In this document: positions 1 through 49,074 of the stretch, one piece after another
Position numbering within the stretch: position 1 is the stretch's first letter
How the letters are laid out: each line of letters opens with the position of its first letter
Source: Rhodovulum adriaticum
GTDB lineage: Bacteria; Pseudomonadota; Alphaproteobacteria; Rhodobacterales; Rhodobacteraceae
Length of the DNA stretch: 64,000 nt
Assembly: GCF_004345735.1 (NCBI RefSeq)
Contig: NZ_SLXL01000006.1
Location: 1-64,000 of the forward strand
Direction of reading: 5' to 3'
Notes under the pieces: model-generated
What the model was told of the DNA's origin: nothing
Database searches by the model: none
Seen by the model: the letters and a program-made list of their open reading frames with translations, nothing else
Program-made: the position numbers and the translations under genes

Positions 1-32
1 TTGCGAAATTCATCCGTCCTGACTGTGCCCAT
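1..32 (-). CDS. IS3-type transposase OrfA, N-terminal end only (runs off the left edge)
   Basis: Only the first ten codons are in the window, reading MGTVRTDEFR on the minus strand. This resembles the beginning of IS3-family OrfA proteins, which often open with a short M-x-T-V-R-x-D-E-F-R run before a helix-turn-helix. A clear Shine-Dalgarno, AAGGAGA, sits just upstream of the ATG (around positions 40-46), so this looks like a real start rather than a chance match. The rest of the element lies outside the window, so completeness cannot be judged. The adjoining DNA is full of other transposase remnants, which fits. Confidence 0.5.
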   Translation of the reverse strand, partial: MGTVRTDEFR

Positions 33-62
33 GGTTCATCTCCTTTGCTGCACATTACGTGA

Positions 63-584
63 TCAAAGGGGCGGCACCAAACCGTGACAGGTCCAGACCG
101 TGCCAGGCAGCCGGATCACCATGCCACCCGCCTCGATCTCGATCCGGTCCCGGCCCCTGTCGGAACTCGGCGTGGGGTCCGGCGCGTCAACGACCAGCGG
201 CACGAACTCCGCCGGTGTCGGCAAGCCCGGCGCATCCACCGGAAGGGCAATCCGTCCCTCCCGGGCCTGCCGCAGCCACGTCATCAGTTGCGACGGCAGC
301 AGCCGATGCCGCCGGGCGGCATCGCCCACACGCGCCCCGGGCGCAAAGCTCTCCATGACAATCTGCGCCTTGACCTCGTCCGGCCAGCTCCGCCGCCCTG
401 TCGGCTCATCCAGAACATCAAACTGCCCGACAAACCCAACCGTCTGACGCTTCTGCTACTTCGTGACCGTCTTGGGGTTGATCCCGAACTCCCGGCTCAG
501 CTCCGAGAGAGAAGCTTGCGATCGCTGTATTGCAGCTCTGACGGCGTGCGTGGTCGTGGCGCTCCCGTGACGAACTTGTCCCAT
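63..584 (-). pseudogene. Hybrid transposase remnant: IS481-type N-terminus joined in frame to IS66 TnpA, with a nonsense codon
   Basis: From the ATG at 584 the frame reads MGQVRHGSATTTHAVRAAIQ and continues through a helix-turn-helix with GINPKTVTK; this matches the start of IS481-type transposases as I remember them. A TAG at 458-456 stands where the family has a tryptophan (KTVTK-W-QKR). The same frame then changes into an IS66 TnpA protein (RRSWPDEVKAQIVMESFAPG, then ARRHRLLPSQLMTWLRQARE). The IS66 similarity stops near the phrase RLPGTV, and the ORF ends at 63 after an unrelated tail. No catalytic DDE domain from either family is present, so this is a dead composite formed by nested insertion or recombination. 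The ATG at 356 begins only the IS66 part. Confidence 0.7.
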
Positions 585-1047
585 AGTGCTTCCTTCTATC
601 CCTGAGAAGGGATCGCACCATCAAACCATTGGATCAAACACCTAGGGACGGGGCGGCCCGAAGCACGTTTCAGGCAAGCTTGGTGCAGCGCGTTTCGGTC
701 AGTTCGCTACAGCGTAACTCTAACAACCGCACTGGAAACGCAAGAACCAAGCAAGGCCTAAGACGGAGCATTGCATATGCCGAAAGCTCAACGTATCGTG
801 GCACACAGTTGTAACACAGCAGGAATGCCCTGAAATTAATCCATAATTATCAATTGCTTAATCTAGGCTTGCACTTGGGTGATTATCCTACCACCCCAGC
901 CAAATCCCACATTAAGTCATTGATATAGAACGGAAATAGCCAGACCTGCACCGGTGCCTGAACCGATGTGTCATACACGGCTGTTGGACTTGCGTTGGAA
1001 AAGCGCCGGGTTCTTGAGGGCATGACATGTGATCGAGGGCACGGACG
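585..1047. other. Gene-free AT-richer stretch between transposon remnants and the copper locus
   Basis: No convincing gene is visible. The stretch around 810-930 is clearly AT-richer than the rest of the window. The segment near 596-640 could contain an old insertion-sequence end, but I cannot match it to a partner inverted repeat. Short ORFs here have no ribosome binding site and no recognisable product. Confidence 0.5.
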
Positions 1048-4305: not shown

Positions 4306-6030
4306 GTGCTACACTGCGGAGCGTTATCGCCGAACCTCATCATGACCGGTCAAATAGATTTGTTCGCATTCCTCCAACCCGGCGGTCTCAACTGCCTTCT
4401 AGAGGTGCCGCCCGATGGCCCGGTCGCCCTGGTGGCGATGAACCTTCTTATCCTGGTCGCGTTCACGCATTGGGTCAGCAAACAACCTGATTTCGTTGGG
4501 AAAGCCCAGTTCCGGCTGACGAATATCGGCTTGGCGTGGTGGCTGCTGACGGCCGGGCTCGAATTGCAGTCGACCACTGCGTCCTGCAAGACCCTCTTTG
4601 CCATGGCGGCCTGGCCGGGCATCATGTTGATCTCGGTTTCGTGGCTGGCGTTCATCAGCTCCTTTGCGCTGCGCGCCGATCAGAATCACCTAAGGCGCGA
4701 TCTCGTCGTGATCGCGTGTTTCGTTCTGATCGGAACGGTGGCGGCCTGGACCAACCCGCTTCACGGGCTGTTTTACACCGACGAGGTCCGACTGGTCGAA
4801 ACGGCCGGGCGCCTTTCGGCGCAGTTCGAACACGGCCCGCTGTTCTACCTTGCGGTCTTCATGAACTACTGTGCCGTCCTGGCCGCCTTCCTGATCGTGC
4901 TGCTCGTCATGCGCCGGACCTCGAAGGTTTACAGGCGGTATTTCGCGTTCTTCCTGTTGATCACGGTGATCCCGATCCTGGCCAACGCGGCCTATACCCT
5001 TTTCGACTTCACGGTTTTCGGCTTCGATCCGACGCCCTTCGTCTTTACCTTCGTCCTGCTGGGGCTGGGCCTGCTGATCTTCAACAAGGGCTTTTTCGAT
5101 ATCGTCGCCGTGGGACGCGAGGTGCTGTACTACCGCATGGCAAACCCCGTCTTCGTGGTGAACCGGATGGGGATCATCACCGGGCTGAACACGGCCGCAA
5201 AGGGGGTCGTGCACGCGGAAAACAAGGTGGGCCAACACCTGAGCAGCATCCCGGCATTCCAAGACTTCCAGGGGGTCTTCACCATGGCCTCTATCGAGGC
5301 CATGCCGGAACGGTTGCAGATCGGGGAACAGTTTTTCGATGTCGATGTGTTCCCGATCGGTCTGCCCGTGGGCGACACTGACGAACTGATCGGCGCGACC
5401 GTCCTGCTAACCGATGTCACGGATCTGTATTCGCGGGGTCGCGCGCTGGCCAGCGCGGTCGATGTGATGAATAACACGCTGAACCAGAACCGCAGGCAGC
5501 TTGAAGAGATTCAGACCCTGCGCGAAGAAGCCGAGCGTCTGGCGGATCGTGACTGGCTGACCGGCCTGCTGAACCGCAGACGACTGGACGAGAGTTTCAA
5601 GCAACTTGCCGAAGAACGCGACGACAACAAGATCGTCGTGCTCTGCGTGCTCGACCTCGATCATTTCAAGTCGATCAATGACCGTTTCGGCCATGTTGTC
5701 GGCGACAGGGTCCTGAAGGGGTTCGCGCAGATGATGGAAAGCATCTTGCCCGAGGATGCCATCTGCTTTCGCGTGGGTGGCGAGGAATTCGTAGTGCTTC
5801 ATCGCGCCGCCACGGTGGCAGAGGTCGTCCAGGACCTGAACCGCTTGCGCGAGGCGCTGGACAAAGATCCCCTGATGCGCCGCACCGATGTCCCGCCGGT
5901 CACGTTTTCCGGCGGAGTGGCGTCCTTCCCTGCGGATGGCGAAACGCTCGACGCGCTTTACGCCAAGGCGGACGAACACCTGTACACGGCAAAAGAAAAA
6001 GGCCGGAACCGTATCGTGCAGGAAGGCTAG
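4306..6030 (+). CDS. Membrane-anchored diguanylate cyclase (7TM N-terminus, PAS-like, GGDEF)
   Basis: The protein (574 residues from this ATG; about 562 from the internal ATG at 4342) makes c-di-GMP from two GTP. Residues 35-250 hold about seven hydrophobic segments resembling the histidine-kinase N-terminal 7TM region. A PAS-like stretch follows (HVENKVGQ-like region, about 270-370), then a short coiled coil (RRQLEEIQTLREEAERLADR) and a GGDEF domain from about 415. The active-site loop is FRVGGEEFVVL near residue 491, so catalysis should be intact. The inhibitory RxxD site normally found just before it is replaced by LPED, suggesting no product inhibition. No convincing ribosome binding site decides between the two starts. 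It stands alone with no co-directional neighbour. Confidence 0.85.
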   Translation: MLHCGALSPNLIMTGQIDLFAFLQPGGLNCLLEVPPDGPVALVAMNLLILVAFTHWVSKQPDFVGKAQFRLTNIGLAWWLLTAGLELQSTTASCKTLFAMAAWPGIMLISVSWLAFISSFALRADQNHLRRDLVVIACFVLIGTVAAWTNPLHGLFYTDEVRLVETAGRLSAQFEHGPLFYLAVFMNYCAVLAAFLIVLLVMRRTSKVYRRYFAFFLLITVIPILANAAYTLFDFTVFGFDPTPFVFTFVLLGLGLLIFNKGFFDIVAVGREVLYYRMANPVFVVNRMGIITGLNTAAKGVVHAENKVGQHLSSIPAFQDFQGVFTMASIEAMPERLQIGEQFFDVDVFPIGLPVGDTDELIGATVLLTDVTDLYSRGRALASAVDVMNNTLNQNRRQLEEIQTLREEAERLADRDWLTGLLNRRRLDESFKQLAEERDDNKIVVLCVLDLDHFKSINDRFGHVVGDRVLKGFAQMMESILPEDAICFRVGGEEFVVLHRAATVAEVVQDLNRLREALDKDPLMRRTDVPPVTFSGGVASFPADGETLDALYAKADEHLYTAKEKGRNRIVQEG

Positions 6031-6101
6031 GCGCGGGGTATCCCCAATTCGATCATGGCCCGCCAGGGCGCTGGCAGCTACCGCACGCGGGCCATCACGC
6101 G

Positions 6102-8960
6102 TCAGGAGACGTCCGCATCGTCGTCGTCGGCCCCGATGTCCACCTGCAGATCGTCCAGTTCCGTGCCTTGAACGATAAGCCGGTGATCCTCGCCGAAGTT
6201 CAGCACGACGTTGCCTTGCCATTCGCTGGCGGCGCGGCTGAGCAGGTCATCCAGCGACTCGCCATCTTGCAGCAGGGCTGATTCCAACAGCACTCGATCC
6301 TCGGCCGCGTTGTAGTCGCGCACCACGTCGATCCCCGCGTCGGCACCGTAGATGAAGACGTCATTGCCCGTCCCGCCGGTCAGGAAGTCGTTGCCCGCAC
6401 CACCGTTCAGGATGTCGTCGCCCGCATTGCCAGACAGCCGGTCATCGCCCGCGTCGCCCATCAGCACGTCGGCGCCCCCCCAGCCCTCCAGGGTATCATC
6501 GTCCGCGCCGCCGTAGATCACATCGTCACCGCCGCCACCGACAAGGGAATCCTGCCCCGCGTCGCCGAACAGCTGGTCGTTATGCGCGCCGCCCCTCAGG
6601 GCATCGTCACCGCCGCCGCCATGCAGCTGGTCAGCGCCCTTGTTGCCATAAAGAGCGTCGTTCCCCTCACCACCCGAGAGAACGTCATCCCCTGCCCAGC
6701 CGGAAATCGCGTCATCGGCGTCCGTCCCGGCCAGGATATCGTCGCCGTCGCTGGGCCCGGTTGCCACCTGCGCCTGCGGTTCAGGCGTTGCCTCTTCCTC
6801 TTGTTCAGAGGAGGACGAAGAGGCGGCGACGCCGGAGCCGTCGAACGCGGCCCAGAAGCTTGACGAGGCGGCCCACATATCGGGGGCGACCGCAGAGGAG
6901 GCCTCGACCGGCTCGGCAGGCGCTTCCTCGACAACCTCGGTCTCGCTGCTTTCGTTGGTATCGTTCGAAACACCGCCACTTTGGACAGGCGCGGTGCTGT
7001 CGGCTTCGTCGGCGTCATCTTCGCTGTCAGCCAATTCAACCCGCAGGTCGTCCAGGTTGGCATTCTTGACAATCAGCCGGTTGGCGTCGTCGAAACGCAT
7101 GACGACATTGCCTTCCCATTCCCCGGCAACGCGCGCCAGCAGGTCGTCCAGCGTTTCGCCGGGCTGCAACAGGTCGGACCCGAGGCGAATGCTGTCTTCG
7201 GCGGGGTTGTAATCGCGCACCACGTCGATGCCCGCATCGCCCCCATAGATGAAGATGTCATCGCCCGACCCGCCGGTCAGGAAATCGTCGCCCAGACCAC
7301 CGTCGAGGGTGTCGTTACCGGCATTGCCCGACAGGTTGTCGTCACCGGCATTCCCCATGAGCGTGTCATCACCGGCCCAGCCGGAAATCTCATCGTTCCC
7401 CTCCGTCCCCAGCAGGGTATCGGCGCCGCTGGTCGGTTTCGCCATGATCTCGGGTTCAACGGGCTCTACCGGGGCGATCCCATATTCCGCGGCCACCGCA
7501 GCCAGATCAGCATCGCTGACCGACAGCCTGATTTCCGCGACCTCGTATTGTTTATCGAAGGTCAGACCCAGGGCACCGTCCGCGACTTGCGGGGTAACGG
7601 TTCGGATGACCGCCTCTTCATGCAGTTCTTCGGCCGCGGTGCCTGCATATTGCGCGTCGTCGGCGGGCAACTCGGAACTGAGAATGCGCAGCGAGGTGAC
7701 CTCGGCATCCTCGAACACGCTGAAATCCAGGGTCGTGCTCAGCACGTCCGCGTCATTGGCGCCCAGATAGACGATCAACTCGTCCGAGGTCTGGTAGGCG
7801 TGCATGATGAAGGTGTCGTCGCGGCTGGCAGGGGTATACGAGCCCAAAAGCTCTGCCCCGATCAGCGTTTCGGACATCATCTGAACCATCGCACCGGCTG
7901 GTGAAGTCTCGATCACGCCGCCTTGGTCGTTGATGAAATGGTTCAGGTTGTCGACATCGACCCCCCACAGGGCCGCCGCGTCCACACCGATAGAGGTGAA
8001 ACCGCTGAACAGTTCCAGCGCGGTCGAGGCACCGGCCAACCCGTAGTCGTAATAGTCCAGGTCCAGACCATCGGCGGACATGCCGGACCCGCCGACCGTC
8101 CAGGCGGACAGGTACAGTTCGGGATCGGCGGTGCCCCCGGCGTCCTCGATGGCGGCGCTCCAGGCCGCCAGGTAATCTTCGGTGCTTTCGAAGATCGTTT
8201 CGCCCTCGTCCTCGGGATCCTCGCCGGTTTCAACGCGGGTCAGGTTTTGCAGCCCGATCGGCAAGGAGTGCACGACAAGCGTATCGACCGCCGCCAGCGC
8301 ATCCTGGGAAAACGCATCGCGGATCGCGACATCGTCGCTGTGGTTGTATCCCATCTGAACCGCGATGTTGATGTCGTGCCCCTGGGGGTTCAGTTCGGGA
8401 TCGTTCAGAACCCCTGCGGCCGTTTCCACCAACGCGTTGGCCACCTGGCCGTACAGGCCCGGATCGTCCGCGAAGATGTCGAAATTCTTGTATTCGTTAC
8501 CGATTTCGATCGTGAAATCCTCGGGCAGCGTCCCGTATTCCCCGGCCAGCAGATCGGTGAGGAAGGTTTCCAGATCGGCCTGCCCGGTTTCGATGTCATC
8601 CGCATAGCGCACAGTCGGAATAATCATCGAGAAGCTTTGCCCGTTCTCGGTCACCGAGGACAACATGTCCGACAGATCGGGGCGGTCGCGATCCGGGTCT
8701 TCGTTATACAGCTTGGTGCCGTCGAAGATTCCGGGAACATCCAGCCCGTAGACATCTTCCTGTGCCTCGGACAGCGTCCCACCCGGCCAGCGGACATGCG
8801 TCACGCCCAGGGTTTCGGACTGTTCCTCGAAGCCCGAGAAATTCTGAAAACCCGTCTGGATTGCGCCGAACATGTCGGCGCTGACGGTTTGCACCTGCTG
8901 CTCCGTCTCGGCGGTCGGCTGCAAGGTTATGGTCGTGCCATTCGCGTCATAGACAAACAT
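6102..8960 (-). CDS. Secreted RTX protein with a glycoside-hydrolase-like N-terminal domain
   Basis: This acidic 952-residue protein has no N-terminal signal peptide and ends in calcium-binding RTX nonapeptides, as expected for type I secretion. Residues 1-490 look like a TIM-barrel glycosidase: VRWPGGT near 57, and IEIGNE with a candidate acid/base Glu156. The second expected acid, usually in a SEW motif, appears as LYLSAWTVGG with Ala286. Two RTX blocks follow (about 510-575 and 745-890). Each is followed by a nearly identical unit beginning GIDVVRDYN and containing LDDLL and GNVV, so the C-terminal half arose by duplication; a Ser/Glu-rich linker separates the copies. The start has AGGGAG upstream. 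No HlyB/HlyD/TolC-type exporter genes are nearby. The substrate is unknown. Confidence 0.75.
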   Translation of the reverse strand: MFVYDANGTTITLQPTAETEQQVQTVSADMFGAIQTGFQNFSGFEEQSETLGVTHVRWPGGTLSEAQEDVYGLDVPGIFDGTKLYNEDPDRDRPDLSDMLSSVTENGQSFSMIIPTVRYADDIETGQADLETFLTDLLAGEYGTLPEDFTIEIGNEYKNFDIFADDPGLYGQVANALVETAAGVLNDPELNPQGHDINIAVQMGYNHSDDVAIRDAFSQDALAAVDTLVVHSLPIGLQNLTRVETGEDPEDEGETIFESTEDYLAAWSAAIEDAGGTADPELYLSAWTVGGSGMSADGLDLDYYDYGLAGASTALELFSGFTSIGVDAAALWGVDVDNLNHFINDQGGVIETSPAGAMVQMMSETLIGAELLGSYTPASRDDTFIMHAYQTSDELIVYLGANDADVLSTTLDFSVFEDAEVTSLRILSSELPADDAQYAGTAAEELHEEAVIRTVTPQVADGALGLTFDKQYEVAEIRLSVSDADLAAVAAEYGIAPVEPVEPEIMAKPTSGADTLLGTEGNDEISGWAGDDTLMGNAGDDNLSGNAGNDTLDGGLGDDFLTGGSGDDIFIYGGDAGIDVVRDYNPAEDSIRLGSDLLQPGETLDDLLARVAGEWEGNVVMRFDDANRLIVKNANLDDLRVELADSEDDADEADSTAPVQSGGVSNDTNESSETEVVEEAPAEPVEASSAVAPDMWAASSSFWAAFDGSGVAASSSSSEQEEEATPEPQAQVATGPSDGDDILAGTDADDAISGWAGDDVLSGGEGNDALYGNKGADQLHGGGGDDALRGGAHNDQLFGDAGQDSLVGGGGDDVIYGGADDDTLEGWGGADVLMGDAGDDRLSGNAGDDILNGGAGNDFLTGGTGNDVFIYGADAGIDVVRDYNAAEDRVLLESALLQDGESLDDLLSRAASEWQGNVVLNFGEDHRLIVQGTELDDLQVDIGADDDDADVS

Positions 8961-43642: not shown

Positions 43643-44281
43643 TCAAGATAGGCAGATCTTCTCAAGAACGGAAAATGCTGCAATCCCAGATGCGGCAACA
43701 GGAAAAGAAAGATACCAGAAAAAAACAACAAACCGGGAAGTCCATTTCATTTTTGAAAAACCCGGGCCGATCAAGTCAAAGATCTCACCTGATCGCACTA
43801 ATTCCCGGTCTATTTTTCCAATCGTTGACGAGATTTCTCTTAAATTTTCCTCCAGCTGCGATTTTTTATTTGACGATGTATTATCGCAGTGCAGAAGATG
43901 CGTGGATGCTTCTTCATATGCCGCCTGGAGTTTCTGAGTGATGTCGTTCAACCTTTCGACAACATGCTCATTATCGGCAGGGCTGCTCATTCCCATCAAT
44001 GTTCCCCTTGGCACAACACGCTGACCAAACCATTTTGAATAACTCACATAGTCAGCCCACCAATGCACGACATGCGAAACCAATAGAACAAGCAAAACAA
44101 CAAGCGAGACTATGAAAAAATCCTTCTCGGTCAATCCTTTGATTCCGACACCCAGAACATTCGCCGTGTCAACAGTCAGATTGAATCGCGTTACGACGAT
44201 GAGTGCCCCAGAAAACAGGAGAAGGTTGCGAGAGGAGGCGCTCGTATAGCGTGAAATTGCCTCCTCTCCATAAATCCTCAT
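43643..44281 (-). CDS. Membrane protein of unrecognised family, coupled to thyX
   Basis: A 212-residue protein I cannot assign. It has two N-terminal hydrophobic segments (LLLFSGALIVVTRF near 20-33 and FFIVSLVVLLVLLVSHVVHW near 55-74), a long cytosolic or periplasmic coiled coil (NDITQKLQAAYEEA, then QLEENLREISSTIGKIDREL) and a C-terminal helix (FVVFFWYLSFPVAASGIAAF). GGAGGG precedes the ATG, and the start is two bases after the thyX stop, so it is expressed with thyX. Its DNA is visibly richer in A and T, and its codons differ from all neighbours, which points to recent acquisition. It could be a host-defence membrane effector, but nothing in the sequence proves that. Confidence 0.7.
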   Translation of the reverse strand: MRIYGEEAISRYTSASSRNLLLFSGALIVVTRFNLTVDTANVLGVGIKGLTEKDFFIVSLVVLLVLLVSHVVHWWADYVSYSKWFGQRVVPRGTLMGMSSPADNEHVVERLNDITQKLQAAYEEASTHLLHCDNTSSNKKSQLEENLREISSTIGKIDRELVRSGEIFDLIGPGFSKMKWTSRFVVFFWYLSFPVAASGIAAFSVLEKICLS

Positions 44282-44283
44282 AA

Positions 44284-45192
44284 TTACCCTCCCAAAACTC
44301 CCTCAAACTCCCGCCATTCCCCCTTGGACATGCCAGAGTTTTCCTGCGTCACCTCTTCGCCCTTCAGCATGCGACGGATACAATCCAGGGCGGTCGCTGA
44401 CAGATTGACACCCCCCATCCGGTAATCCTCGAACGCCTTGAACGCCGCCGGCACCCAGTCGGCCACGATCTCGCAGATGGTTTCGGCGTAGACGCGGATT
44501 TCGTACTGGGCGTGCACGTCCGCGCGCAGCCGCAGGAAGTGGAAGAGGTTGTGCAGATCAACCTTCCAGTACCATTGGGTGTAGATATTGGCGGGCAGGT
44601 TCATGCGGGCCAGTTCGCGGGCCAGACCCTTTTGCCCCTCGGTGGACAGCATCGCCTCGTAATGGTCATAGGCGCGCATGGCATCCGATTTCAGCATTTC
44701 CAGCACGCGCGCGGCCTCTTCGCCCTCCAGCAGCTCGCCCCGGCCCTGATTGTTGACGGTGGATTGCGCGGCCAGCGCGTCGGGCGCGGGGATGTAGAAT
44801 TCGCGGTCCAGGATCGAATAGCGGGCCGAGTATTCGTTCACGTTAGCGGTGCGGTGGCGGATCCACTGGCGCGCGACGAAGACGGGCAGTTTGACGTGCA
44901 GCTTGATCTCGCACATCTCGAACGGGGTAGAGTGCCAGTGCCGCATCAGGTAGCGGATCAACCCCTCGTCGTTGCTGACCGATTTGGTGCCCTTGCCATA
45001 GCTGACGCGGGCCGCCTGGCAGATGGCGGCATCGTCGCCCATGTAGTCGATCACCCGGACGAAACCGTGATCCAGCACCGGGTGGGCGGTATACAGCCGC
45101 TCTTCCATCCCGGGCGAGGTGACGCGACGGGTGGGCGTGGTCTGGGCACGTTGGGCGGTGATCTCTGCGGCTTGGTCGGGGGAAAGCGGCAT
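44284..45192 (-). CDS. thyX: FAD-dependent thymidylate synthase
   Basis: A 302-residue enzyme that makes dTMP from dUMP using methylenetetrahydrofolate, NADPH and FAD. The ThyX signature [15 protein letters not shown] is complete, with substrate-binding motifs such as [28 protein letters not shown] and NLFHFLRLR. It is longer than the shortest ThyX proteins, as usual in alphaproteobacteria. AGGAG precedes the ATG at 45192; the open frame continues to 45462 but that part is non-family sequence. The next gene is coupled to its stop. Confidence 0.93.
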
Positions 45193-45413: not shown

Positions 45414-46472
45414 ATGGCGCATAATCGAATTCTGCTGGCAGCACTGCTGGCGGTAGCCGCATGTTCTGGCGGCGACGGAACCAATCCGATCAACAACTCT
45501 GGCGGCGTCGAGGACGGGTCCGACACCGGGAATGAGGGCGGGATCACCTCGGTCGACGAGATGCCCCCCGGCACCCCCCTGCCCAAGCCGAACCGGGCCA
45601 TCGTCCGGCGCGAGCCAGAGGACGACACCAACGGCTTTGCCACCGGGTTCGCCTACAATTCCGACACGGACGAGTTCACCGTGGACAACCTGGCCTTCGA
45701 CGGGGACAACACCTATTCCCGCGACGACGTGGTCGGCACCCTGTCCACCGGCGCGACGCGCTATGCCCTGTATGAGGGCGACAGCGAGGTCAGCGACCCG
45801 GTAACGGGCGACCCCATCGGCCAGTTCAACTACCGGGCGCTTTACGGCGTGTCCCACAACCAGATGGAAGACGGCCGCCCGACCACGGAATTCGCGATCG
45901 TGCGCACCGGGTCTTACGTCGGCTACGGCTATGGCGGCTTCATCTACCAGCGCAACGGCAGCGTCACCTTGCCCGAAACCGGGCAGGCCAATTTCAACGG
46001 GGAATATGCCGGCCTGCGCGATTTCGAGGGCAAGGGCGGGCTGGAATACGTCATCGGCGACATGTCGGTTTCCATCGACTTCGAGGATTTCAACACCGGC
46101 TCGGGCGTGGCGGGCTATGTCGAGAACCGGCGCATCTTCGACCAGGACGGCAACGACCTGACGGTCGAGTATATCAACGCCTTCCAGACCCAATACGAGG
46201 GCACCTACGAGGCCCTGCAGGTGCTGCGCTTCGTGATCTCGGACGGGGTGGCCGACGCCAATGGCGAGATCATCGGCCAGGTGGACAGCAACATCCTGAC
46301 CGGGGCGGGCGAGATACAGCAGGTGGAATCCGGCACCTACTACGCGATTGTTTCGGGCGAGCCCGCGAACGAAATTGTCGGCGTGCTGACGGTGGAATCA
46401 AGCCACCCCGCAATCGAAGGCGTCACAGTGCGTGAAACCGGCGGCTTCATCCTGCACCGCCCGGCGCCCTGA
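45414..46472 (+). CDS. TbpB-like surface lipoprotein, predicted Slam client
   Basis: A 352-residue lipoprotein with signal [17 protein letters not shown], lipobox Cys17, and a flexible Gly/Asn/Asp-rich linker (about 18-45). The C-terminal half has the alternating pattern of the eight-stranded TbpB-type barrel: [58 protein letters not shown] and GYVENRRIF. Proteins with this barrel are carried to the cell surface by Slam proteins, and the next gene, three bases on, encodes a Slam-like protein. The ligand cannot be told; iron or haem sources are common in the family. The barrel assignment is by pattern recognition. Confidence 0.72.
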
Positions 46473-46475
46473 TCC

Positions 46476-47855
46476 ATGCGCCGTGCGGGGGCCATGCGGC
46501 ATCTTGCAGGGGCCGGGGCGCTAGCCACCGGCCTGATGGCTGGAATCGCTGGCTGGGCCGGCGAAAAGGTCACGCTGACACCGGCTGAAATGCACGCGGC
46601 CACGGCCCACGCATTGACCGTCGGGGACCACCAGATGGCGCTGCGCCTGGCCGAGGCCCTGCTGGTGCGCGATCCCCAGGACGGGCAGGCCCTTGCCGCG
46701 CGGGCGCGGGCGCTGCGCAATCTTGGCCGCCCGGATGAGGCCCGCGCCGCAGCGCGAACGGCCTGGGCGCAGGCGGATACCGATGCGGAACGCTATGCGG
46801 CGGCCCTGCTGACGGCACAGGCGCTGTCGTCGATGGGGCGGCATACCTCGGCACAGTTCTGGTTGCGCCGCGCGGGGCAGAACGCCCCCACACCCGCGGC
46901 GCGCGCCCGCGCCGCCCGCGATTTCCGATATGTCCGCAGCCGCAACCCGTGGTCGGCGCATCTGGGGTTCGGGGTCACGCCGTCCTCTAACGTCAATGGC
47001 GGGTCCAGCGCCGACCGCATCAACATCGGCGGCCTGCCCTTCGTGCTGTCGCCCTCGGCGCGCGCCCTGTCGGGCACCGAGATAACCGGCGAGGCGGAAT
47101 TGCGCTATCGCCTGCGCCCCAGCGAGACACTGCAACTGCATGTCGAGGGCCACATGGAGGCGCGCGCCTACCGGCTGTCGGACGGGGCACGCGCCCGCGC
47201 GCCGGGGCTGCAAAACGGCGATCTGGCCTGGCAGGCCGCAGAGGTGGCGGTTGGCGGGTACTGGGCCGCGTCCCCGGGCGCGGGGCCCTTCGGCGCCGAG
47301 CTGACCTTCGGCAAGAGCTATTACGGCGGCGATCCGCTGGCCGACTACGCACGGCTGGACCTGTCCAAACGCTTTGCGCTGGCGCCCGGCACGATCCTGC
47401 GCCTGTCCGGCGCGCTGGAGGAACAGTGGCGCCACGATGCGACGATCAACGACGCGACCGTGACCGGCGGCACGGCCGAGATCATCCGGCGGCGCGAAAA
47501 CGGCGACATGGTCAACCTGTCACTGGAACTCAGCGACACGACCAGCGACAGCGCCACAATCGCCCATGAGGCGGCAGCGTTCGGCGTGGATTATCAGCTT
47601 GCCAAACCAGTCCTGGGCGCAAGGCTGAGCCTGAGCGCCGCGTATGAGCACCGCGATTACGATCGGGGCCTGTTCGGCGCCGCCCCCCGTACCGACGACC
47701 GCATCAGTTTGGGCGCGTCGGTCTTCCTGCCGGAGGTGTCCTATTACGGCTTTGCCCCGGAAGTCGGCCTGCAGGCACAGCGCGTCAATTCCAACCAGCC
47801 GCTTTACCGCAGCGAGGAGCTGGGTCTTACGCTTGGGTTCCGCTCGACCTTCTGA
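46476..47855 (+). CDS. Slam-like outer-membrane protein (TPR plus DUF560 barrel)
   Basis: A 459-residue exported protein. After a signal-like segment (LAGAGALATGLMAGIAGWAG) come two or three TPR-like repeats (about 35-150: ALTVGDHQMALRLAEALLVR, ARALRNLGRPDEARAAARTA). Then comes a beta-barrel of the DUF560 type, opening SRNPWSAHLGFGVTPSSNVN and closing SEELGLTLGFRSTF with the terminal Phe that outer-membrane proteins use for BAM insertion. Slam proteins move surface lipoproteins through the outer membrane. It begins three bases after the TbpB-like lipoprotein stop, an arrangement known for Slam and client pairs. The length is about that of Slam1. Confidence 0.75.
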   Translation: MRRAGAMRHLAGAGALATGLMAGIAGWAGEKVTLTPAEMHAATAHALTVGDHQMALRLAEALLVRDPQDGQALAARARALRNLGRPDEARAAARTAWAQADTDAERYAAALLTAQALSSMGRHTSAQFWLRRAGQNAPTPAARARAARDFRYVRSRNPWSAHLGFGVTPSSNVNGGSSADRINIGGLPFVLSPSARALSGTEITGEAELRYRLRPSETLQLHVEGHMEARAYRLSDGARARAPGLQNGDLAWQAAEVAVGGYWAASPGAGPFGAELTFGKSYYGGDPLADYARLDLSKRFALAPGTILRLSGALEEQWRHDATINDATVTGGTAEIIRRRENGDMVNLSLELSDTTSDSATIAHEAAAFGVDYQLAKPVLGARLSLSAAYEHRDYDRGLFGAAPRTDDRISLGASVFLPEVSYYGFAPEVGLQAQRVNSNQPLYRSEELGLTLGFRSTF

Positions 47856-47914
47856 ACGCGCGCCCCTCGCCATCGCGCACGTGCGCATTAGGTGAAAGGG
47901 AAAGGAGGGTGACC

Positions 47915-48343
47915 ATGCAAATCCGCTATCTGCACACCATGGTCCGCGTCGCGGATCTGGAAAAATCCATTGCCTTTTACGAACTGCTGGGCCTGAAGGA
48001 AACGCGCCGGACCGAGAGCGACAAGGGCCGTTTTACGCTGGTTTTCATGGCGCCCGAGGGGCAGGAAGAATGCCCGGTAGAACTGACCTGGAACTGGGAC
48101 GGGGATGACGGCCTGCCCTCGGACAGCCGACATTTCGGCCACCTGGCCTATGCGGTGGAAAACATCTATGACCTCTGCGCTCATCTGATGCGCAACGGCG
48201 TGACCATCAACCGCCCGCCGCGTGACGGGCGCATGGCCTTCGTGCGCAGCCCCGACAACATTTCCGTCGAATTGCTGCAAATGGGCGATCCCCTGCCCCC
48301 GGCCGAGCCCTGGGCCAGCATGGGCAATACCGGGCATTGGTAA
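47915..48343 (+). CDS. gloA: Glyoxalase I-like VOC-family protein
   Basis: A 142-residue metalloprotein of the vicinal-oxygen-chelate fold. MQIRYLHTMVRVADLEKSIA and FYELLGLKETRR form the first module, and DSRHFGHLAYAVENIYDLCA with NISVELLQMGDPLP the second. The metal ligands of lactoylglutathione lyase are at the expected spots (His7 in YLHTM, Glu in VELTWN, His in FGHLAY, Glu in VELLQ). It should detoxify methylglyoxal with glutathione. AAAGGAGG before the ATG at 47915 is an excellent ribosome binding site. Confidence 0.88.
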   Translation: MQIRYLHTMVRVADLEKSIAFYELLGLKETRRTESDKGRFTLVFMAPEGQEECPVELTWNWDGDDGLPSDSRHFGHLAYAVENIYDLCAHLMRNGVTINRPPRDGRMAFVRSPDNISVELLQMGDPLPPAEPWASMGNTGHW

Positions 48344-48351
48344 GCGGCCCC

Positions 48352-49074
48352 ATGCGCCGCCTTGCCGCCCTCGCCCCCCTTGCCGCCGGCCTGATTGCGC
48401 TAGCCACACAGGCCCAAGCGGCCTGTCGGCTGGCCCTGGTCGTGGCGCTGGACATCTCCTCTTCGGTCAACGCGGAAGAGGACAGGCTGCAACGCGCCGG
48501 GCTGGCGGCAGCCCTGACCGCGCCAGAGGTGCAACAGGAAATCCTGTCGGTGCCCGGCGCCCCGGTGGCCCTGGCCGTCTATGAATGGAGCGGCCGATAC
48601 CAGCAGGACATGGTGCTGGACTGGCGCCTGCTGGACAGCCCTGCCGCCATCGCCGGCGCCGCGGCGGACATCGCCAACTCGCGCCGTCGCTACGCGGAGT
48701 TTCCGACAGCGATGGGCTTTGGCATCGGTTATGCGGCGGGCGTGTTCCAGCGCGCCCCGCCCTGCCTGTTTCAAACGCTGGATATCTCGGGCGACGGGAT
48801 CAACAACGACGGCTTCGGTCCCGACCTGGCCTACCGCAACTTTCCGCTGGCCGGGATCACGGTGAACGGGCTGGCCATCGGCGGCGCAACAGAGGATGAC
48901 GCCCAGGTCTTTCGCTTTTACCGGGAACAGGTGATCCGCGGCCCCGGCGCCTTTGTCGAAACCGCCCGGGATTTCACCGATTTCGAACGGGCCATGCGCC
49001 GCAAGCTGACGCGAGAGATGGCCGCGCGCGTCTATGGCGGGCTGGCCCGCCCCCCGCGCGAACGCGAGGGCTGA
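48352..49074 (+). CDS. DUF1194 (von Willebrand A-like) exported protein
   Basis: A 240-residue secreted protein: signal peptide RRLAALAPLAAGLIALATQA cleaved near AQA, then LALVVALDISSSVNAEEDRL, in which DISSS is a MIDAS-type metal site (DxSxS) of VWA domains. Later TLDISGDGINNDG and GLAIGGATED follow the fold. DUF1194 proteins are common in Rhodobacterales and have no settled function; metal-dependent binding is the likely role. Its start is nine bases after the glyoxalase stop, so they may be cotranscribed. It is convergent with carB. Confidence 0.8.
   Translation: MRRLAALAPLAAGLIALATQAQAACRLALVVALDISSSVNAEEDRLQRAGLAAALTAPEVQQEILSVPGAPVALAVYEWSGRYQQDMVLDWRLLDSPAAIAGAAADIANSRRRYAEFPTAMGFGIGYAAGVFQRAPPCLFQTLDISGDGINNDGFGPDLAYRNFPLAGITVNGLAIGGATEDDAQVFRFYREQVIRGPGAFVETARDFTDFERAMRRKLTREMAARVYGGLARPPREREG

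Follow-up and report, generated by a model that had tools for sequence, protein, structure and literature searches.

A candidate one-client type 11 secretion (Slam) pair in Rhodovulum adriaticum and its family

Described Slam systems and the Rhodovulum locus

TbpB proper is built of two lobes, each composed of a handle and a barrel, and NHBA is a neisserial surface lipoprotein. TbpB is described as a client of Slam, the outer-membrane protein (OMP) of type 11 secretion systems (T11SS), in the papers on Slam (PMC5449769, PMC12282271). Slam homologues were reported from free-living proteobacteria in 2017, with an adjacent lipobox gene in 185 cases out of 353 (PMC5449769), and environmental bacteria were placed in some DUF560 subclusters in 2021 (PMC8406197). 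The most closely related system is the ‘cluster 3’ syntenic locus depicted by Grossman et al. in 2025 (their Fig. 8) for 11 Rhodobacteraceae/Roseobacteraceae strains, which consists of thyX, a cargo gene, the T11SS OMP, a glyoxalase and DUF1194 (PMC12282271). For cluster 3 as a whole, the same paper lists a TbpBBD domain in only 8 of 145 loci and 31 putative cargo ORFs, and suggests that the cargo is seldom adjacent, falls below threshold or was lost; it also raises DUF1194 as a possible T11SS cargo and reports TonB/haem co-occurrence as missing from this cluster. Among the literature matches listed, no further publication was found on this locus, and none on Slam surface lipoproteins in Rhodobacter.

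The window, i.e. the whole stretch of 64,000 nucleotides analysed here, matches this locus of aquatic alphaproteobacteria gene for gene. From the taxonomic family and the identical gene neighbourhood, we infer that its pair belongs to T11SS cluster 3, even though the word Rhodovulum is absent from the main text of the cluster 3 paper. The relevant features are as follows.

44284..45192, minus strand: thyX, flavin-dependent thymidylate synthase (PF02511), divergent flanking gene and syntenic-locus marker
45414..46472, plus strand: cargo lipoprotein, 352 aa, predicted T11SS client (lipobox, family homologues, model, Foldseek)
45414..45464, plus strand: predicted signal peptide and lipobox, residues 1-17, LAVAAC, lipid-bearing Cys17 (alignments, by eye and regular expression)
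45465..45560, plus strand: predicted disordered tether, residues 18-49, with post-Cys motif TNPI, family consensus NPF (pLDDT, motif counts)
45561..45884, plus strand: predicted N-terminal beta effector/pedestal domain, residues 50-157 (model, alignment)
45885..46460, plus strand: predicted C-terminal TbpB-type beta-barrel, about residues 158-349, with a helix (250-261) in one loop (DSSP, Foldseek)
46473..46475, plus strand: spacer between cargo stop and Slam ATG (sequence)
46476..47855, plus strand: Slam / T11SS outer-membrane protein, 459 aa (PF04575, model)
46581..46943, plus strand: predicted periplasmic TPR domain, residues 36-156, alpha-helical repeats (Pfam TPR, model helices)
46950..47846, plus strand: predicted 14-stranded barrel, residues 159-457 (DSSP of model, Pfam)
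47909..48343, plus strand: glyoxalase/VOC protein (PF00903), flanking gene and syntenic-locus marker
48337..49074, plus strand: DUF1194 protein (PF06707), flanking gene, two genes downstream of Slam

An earlier note on this DNA, made from the sequence alone, had proposed a Slam system with its own TbpB-like lipoprotein, the second gene lying three bases beyond the first, in a phototrophic, free-living bacterium. The compact pair is indeed present, the Slam ATG standing three bases after the end of the cargo ORF, and phototrophy is borne out by two matches to Photo_RC (photosynthetic reaction centre) in the genome. It is not the first of its kind: Slam relatives of free-living bacteria had been described in 2017 (PMC5449769), and this locus in marine Rhodobacteraceae/Roseobacteraceae in 2025 (PMC12282271). 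Since the locus itself is already published, its novelty as a system is low. A gap of -32 to +18 bases separates the two genes in 76 of 77 cargo-seeded relatives (seeds being the best 80 of 209 loci), a count in which small gaps are favoured because the Slam start was set at the codon nearest the cargo stop.

The neighbours of the pair are an RND transporter, a 212-aa ORF, thyX (for a start at 45192, genus homologues align from its residue 1 or 3), the glyoxalase, DUF1194 and carB. As the note had stated, no TonB-dependent receptor adjoins the pair among the neighbours scanned, from 40.5 to 52.3 kb. The receptor-barrel model PF00593 has one match genome-wide (E<=1e-5), on another contig (G000:C3:206089-206988), which gives the impression of being few for a 3.3-Mb proteobacterium. 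The Slam of the locus is the sole SlipAM match found in the 3.35-Mb genome. Scans for promoter and terminator consensus sequences found none.

On the 3' side of thyX, gene content differs across several Rhodovulum genomes (L185, L186, L187, L189-L191), with an AIPR/AbiU-like abortive-infection gene in L187 (PADLOC E 1e-46) and, through a weak match, an AAA/STAND-like ATPase in L189; the 212-aa ORF found there in the window (43643-44281, minus strand) has no Pfam or PADLOC family match. This side of thyX is possibly a small site of variable content that houses defence genes.

Predicted structure of the two proteins

The Slam protein matches PF04575 (SlipAM, the old DUF560) over residues 324-459 with 29 bits, above the cut-off of 22, and its TPR part yields several Pfam matches, TPR_14 reaching 25.2 bits against a cut-off of 23.5. 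Its C-terminal residue is Phe459, and a terminal Phe is found in all 64 Slam ORFs of syntenic relatives among the matches listed. The predicted model (67-row alignment, pLDDT 93.6) displays a signal helix, helices from 36 to 156 and 14 strands of at least 11 residues by DSSP, a count identical to that of the Slam1 barrel (PMC5449769). The predicted arrangement of TPR domain and 14-stranded barrel is that of Neisseria Slam1 and Slam2, whose clients, TbpB and HpuA, likewise carry a TbpB-type barrel.

The lipid-bearing Cys17 of the cargo is invariant in alignments A1 (61 rows) and A4 (68 rows), window included, and a lipobox start was detected in 72 of 80 cargo ORFs by regular expression rather than by SignalP. 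The AlphaFold2 model computed from the 68-row alignment has a mean pLDDT of 87.6; the predicted tether falls below 50 at residues 18-47, and the effector domain remains at 83 or more in every ten-residue block from 51 to 160. In the barrel, DSSP assigns seven strands of at least 11 residues between 191 and 348, and two shorter ones ahead of them (158-165 and 174-180). The barrel is likely eight-stranded, its strand number being read from DSSP alone and not from coordinates. When this model was compared with PDB, the five Foldseek hits at E<=0.001 were four TbpB chains and the C-terminal domain of NHBA, with modest TM-scores (0.25-0.38 by query length) and an rmsd of 7 to 16 A. The NHBA domain (6cuj, E 5.9e-4) is likewise a single C-terminal TbpB-like barrel, but shares 14% identity with the cargo, and its solved chain comprises just the barrel (152 residues).

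To sequence comparison, the cargo barrel is close to undetectable. Searches of Pfam, NCBIfam and PDB with the cargo returned nothing above threshold: in Pfam, FHBP_C was the only match, at 13.1 bits for a cut-off of 28.1, and TbpB_B_D was not reached. Among the 68 members of A4, FHBP_C was matched by 26 and TbpB_B_D by one at E<=0.1. The similarity is accordingly too low for the Pfam barrel models, in contrast to the Neisseria clients, and we assign the cargo a predicted TbpB-type fold while claiming no sequence membership of the TbpB_B_D or FHBP_C families. Of the checks proposed in the earlier note, structure prediction placed a C-terminal barrel in both proteins and supports the TbpB-type lipoprotein, whereas the profile search succeeded for DUF560 and stayed below cut-off for the TbpB barrel.

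The model contains one lobe and one barrel and thereby lacks the two-lobe architecture of TbpB proper; it differs from the Neisseria Slam1/TbpB and Slam2/HpuA clients in this respect and in having no TonB partner, TbpB proper being flanked by its TonB-dependent partner TbpA. The cargoes of cluster 3 are 282-375 aa long with a C-terminal barrel, several of them with a helix in a barrel loop (PMC12282271), and the protein studied here is likewise so built. In A4, 107 columns are conserved in at least 80% of the rows, and His, Cys and Met are represented among them by just Met1 and the lipid Cys17; this alignment shows no conserved pattern of haem or metal ligands, the best His column reaching 65%. 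Mean pairwise identity in A4 is 0.51 for the effector (residues 50-150), 0.53 for the barrel and 0.32 for the tether. An effector as conserved as the barrel seems unlike an antigen under diversifying pressure.

A short motif closely following the lipid Cys (NPF, NPL, NPI, NPV or QPF) was counted in 50 of the 65 lipobox members of A4, the TNPI of the window included, and in none of 18 further lipobox ORFs in these loci; with a looser pattern, the numbers are 48 of 63 cargoes versus 6 of 52 other lipobox ORFs. As the motif was spotted before being counted, against small backgrounds and with a regular expression as the lipobox test, the NPF-like motif is put forward as a possible mark of the cargoes, and as a lead only. 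It lies within 45462-45500 in the window and occurs in most cargoes of syntenic type; the non-syntenic clients of L016, L026 and L042 start with a Gly-rich stretch.

Pairing of Slam and cargo across the family

The family sample comprised 394 genomes drawn by the tool, which were searched genome-wide with cargo alignment A1 and Slam alignment A2, four or five candidates being scored in most genomes. Class boundaries were of our own choice (E<=1e-50 for Slam, E<=1e-10 for the cargo). Two groups were dropped ahead of the count: 8 genomes whose cargo matches did not reach 1e-10, and 80 whose matches to the Slam alignment fell between 1e-50 and 1e-3, a range that takes in other Slams and, probably, TPR proteins. 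Both genes were detected in 185 genomes, almost all of different genera, Slam only in 9, the cargo only in 5 and neither in 195 (phi 0.93), so that a cargo homologue exists in 190 of the 394. Two other settings gave 180/14/4/196 and 182/7/8/197 for the same four classes. This co-occurrence is more than chance.

The exceptions were then read individually. Of the five cargo-only genomes, four display a weaker match to Slam; the remaining one has a completeness of 77%. Six of the nine Slam-only genomes were read (the others being G079, G160 and G229): a contig end cuts into G180, G217 is a genuine case with Slam adjoining thyX, and no family lipoprotein stands directly upstream in L081, L103, L121 and L146; in L121, a divergent ORF for a lipoprotein is present that, judged by eye, seems unrelated. 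The syntenic, cargo-less L103 (G067) also contains a Slam-like barrel ORF of 348 aa (4338-5384), apparently without the TPR part; this system is possibly losing its function.

At the level of loci, 147 stretches were taken around the PF04575 matches listed in the 394 genomes, 146 of them with a Slam ORF; G078 (internal stop), G245:C1016 (fragment) and the window itself were left out, and stretches of about 10 kb served for the 30 best PF04575 matches. A neighbourhood was termed syntenic when it contained at least two of thyX, glyoxalase and DUF1194, as did 64 of the 146 loci among the matches listed. With the window uncounted, 60 of these 64 Slam-seeded loci (again among the matches listed) have a cargo homologue immediately upstream and in the same orientation; the distance lies between -60 and +500 bases in 50 of them, and 10 show a longer apparent overlap, of 62-166 bases and in one case 1030. 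We think that these overlaps come from taking the longest start. The four syntenic loci without cargo, among the matches listed, are L095, L103, L139 and L146. In L139 (G060), a 941-aa frame considered as a fused cargo-Slam protein was rejected, as its extra length runs antisense through thyX; an exported-looking ORF (1-964, minus strand) lies there on the 3' side of thyX. For the 82 non-syntenic loci among the matches listed, a cargo homologue, in some cases weak, is found upstream in 22, elsewhere in 6 and not at all in 54.

A second set, L200-L279, consists of cargo-seeded loci (best 80 of 209) and was therefore kept out of the co-occurrence claim. In 58 of these loci, cargo and Slam tree distances are correlated (r 0.63), and the partial r after regression on thyX and glyoxalase distances is still 0.58, a value reached in 0 of 2000 permutations. 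This set also bears on Pseudooceanicola marinus LMG 23705, which was named as the sole strain of the 11 without cargo in the locus (PMC12282271), whereas the record of this strain (L230) contains a full cargo ORF at 5983-7029, between thyX and Slam, with an E-value of 8.6e-90 to the cargo profile, a lipobox and the NPF motif. Our guess is that this discrepancy stems from a missed gene call, another assembly or a threshold.

Within the genus, Slam was found in 3 of 16 genomes, that of the window included, and the cargo in the same three. Among the 13 genomes lacking the pair, 11 show thyX adjoining the glyoxalase with neither gene in between, and 2 have no glyoxalase within the 1.5 kb fetched. 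This pattern indicates that the pair comes and goes as one, whereas the flanking genes mostly stay. Horizontal arrival was examined through composition and phylogeny: GC3 is 0.85 and 0.83 for the pair, similar to the 0.83-0.87 of the RND gene, thyX and carB. Trees of 60 loci group the three members of the genus into one thyX clade (support 0.55); the corresponding clade also takes in two Actibacterium loci in the Slam tree (0.998) and one in the cargo tree (0.06). On GC3 and trees, loss and exchange cannot be told apart.

Altogether, the family counts suggest that the Slam channel and its lipoprotein nearly always come as a pair. As far as the counted systems are cluster 3, they speak against the published scarcity of cluster 3 cargo: cargo is rare in that paper (PMC12282271) and near-obligate here.

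Rival readings, proposed transport and client role

The two genes very probably constitute a one-client type 11 secretion (Slam) unit, on the computed grounds of PF04575 and TPR matches, predicted folds, adjacency, near-obligate co-occurrence and joint absence. The reading of the earlier note, a Slam with its own TbpB-like lipoprotein, is accordingly the best one and gains support. Other origins for these observations have to be weighed against it. It seems highly improbable that the second gene encodes the TPR-porin of an exopolysaccharide exporter (BcsC/PelB/PgaA-like) rather than a Slam. In favour of the porin, Foldseek places two TPR-barrel exporters, BcsC and PelB, as the first PDB neighbours of the model, ahead of other barrels; as no Slam is named among the 50 PDB hits listed, structure comparison alone cannot decide between Slam and TPR-porin. 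The profiles are more telling, PF04575 being above its cut-off whereas the weak PgaA match reaches 12.7 bits for a cut-off of 366.65; besides, no polysaccharide synthase was detected among the six neighbours scanned, and the other gene of the pair encodes a lipoprotein of predicted TbpB-type fold. A Slam that mainly secretes the downstream DUF1194 (vWA-like, MIDAS) protein, the barrel lipoprotein being incidental, is improbable as well. This idea draws on the 145 published neighbourhoods of cluster 3, 102 of which contain DUF1194 (PMC12282271), on the position of DUF1194 two genes downstream of Slam in the window and on its adjoining the glyoxalase in all three Slam-bearing genus genomes; yet DUF1194 is kept beside the glyoxalase in 6 of the 13 Slam-less ones (within the 1.5 kb fetched), and its published models have a Rossmann-like fold and no barrel (PMC12282271). 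Across the family, DUF1194 is present in 296 of 394 genomes, 157 with both DUF1194 and Slam, 37 with Slam only, 139 with DUF1194 only and 61 with neither; the association is positive but weak (phi 0.13, p 0.01), i.e. close to independence, in a genome-level test that counts paralogues and leaves room for a locus-specific link. As far as the counted systems are cluster 3, these numbers weaken the case for DUF1194 as cargo.

A further possibility accepts the lipoprotein as the client but makes it a co-receptor for the uptake of iron, haem or another metal, like TbpB or HpuA. Iron uptake is common among verified T11SS cargo (PMC12282271), and the predicted barrel of the cargo is TbpB-like. This alternative is nevertheless unlikely, given an alignment whose conserved His, Cys and Met columns are confined to the start residue and the lipid Cys, a single-lobed model, a pair with no adjoining TonB receptor in a genome with one PF00593 match, and the lack of TonB/haem co-occurrence reported for cluster 3 (PMC12282271). 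The suggestion that the client may not be an iron receptor, already made in the earlier note, is thus strengthened. Since conserved His/Met ligands, a second lobe and an adjacent TonB receptor are all missing, binding or adhesion is favoured over metal uptake, and we infer, less firmly than for the secretion unit itself, that the client would be a TonB-independent binding or adhesive surface protein rather than a haem, iron or transferrin receptor.

For the one-client Slam unit, a route can be proposed in which every step is taken over from work on Neisseria and from general knowledge. The lipoprotein would leave the cytoplasm through Sec, receive its lipid on Cys17 and travel along the Lol route, and would be kept unfolded in the periplasm, a role held by Skp in the Neisseria model (PMC9090332). 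The adjacent Slam would then recognize it, most likely through the C-terminal barrel of the client and the TPR domain, and the client would reach the outer leaflet by way of the 14-stranded barrel, as proposed from Neisseria (PMC9090332). By this analogy, the Slam channel most likely puts the lipoprotein on the cell surface, where the conserved beta effector domain would stand off the membrane on its disordered tether.

For cluster 3 at large, we lean slightly towards a T11SS with one translocon and one client, the latter being single-lobed, free of metal ligands, NPF-marked and without TonB receptor, and the pair being gained or lost between thyX and the glyoxalase. The published scarcity of cargo and the link to DUF1194 would then be artefacts, of barrel models that miss the clients and of shared synteny, respectively.

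In the sampled family, the co-occurrence counts point to a single client for almost all such systems, and the question thereby narrows to a two-gene display test in a harmless free-living bacterium. This pair also points to surface lipoproteins whose role may be other than host iron piracy.
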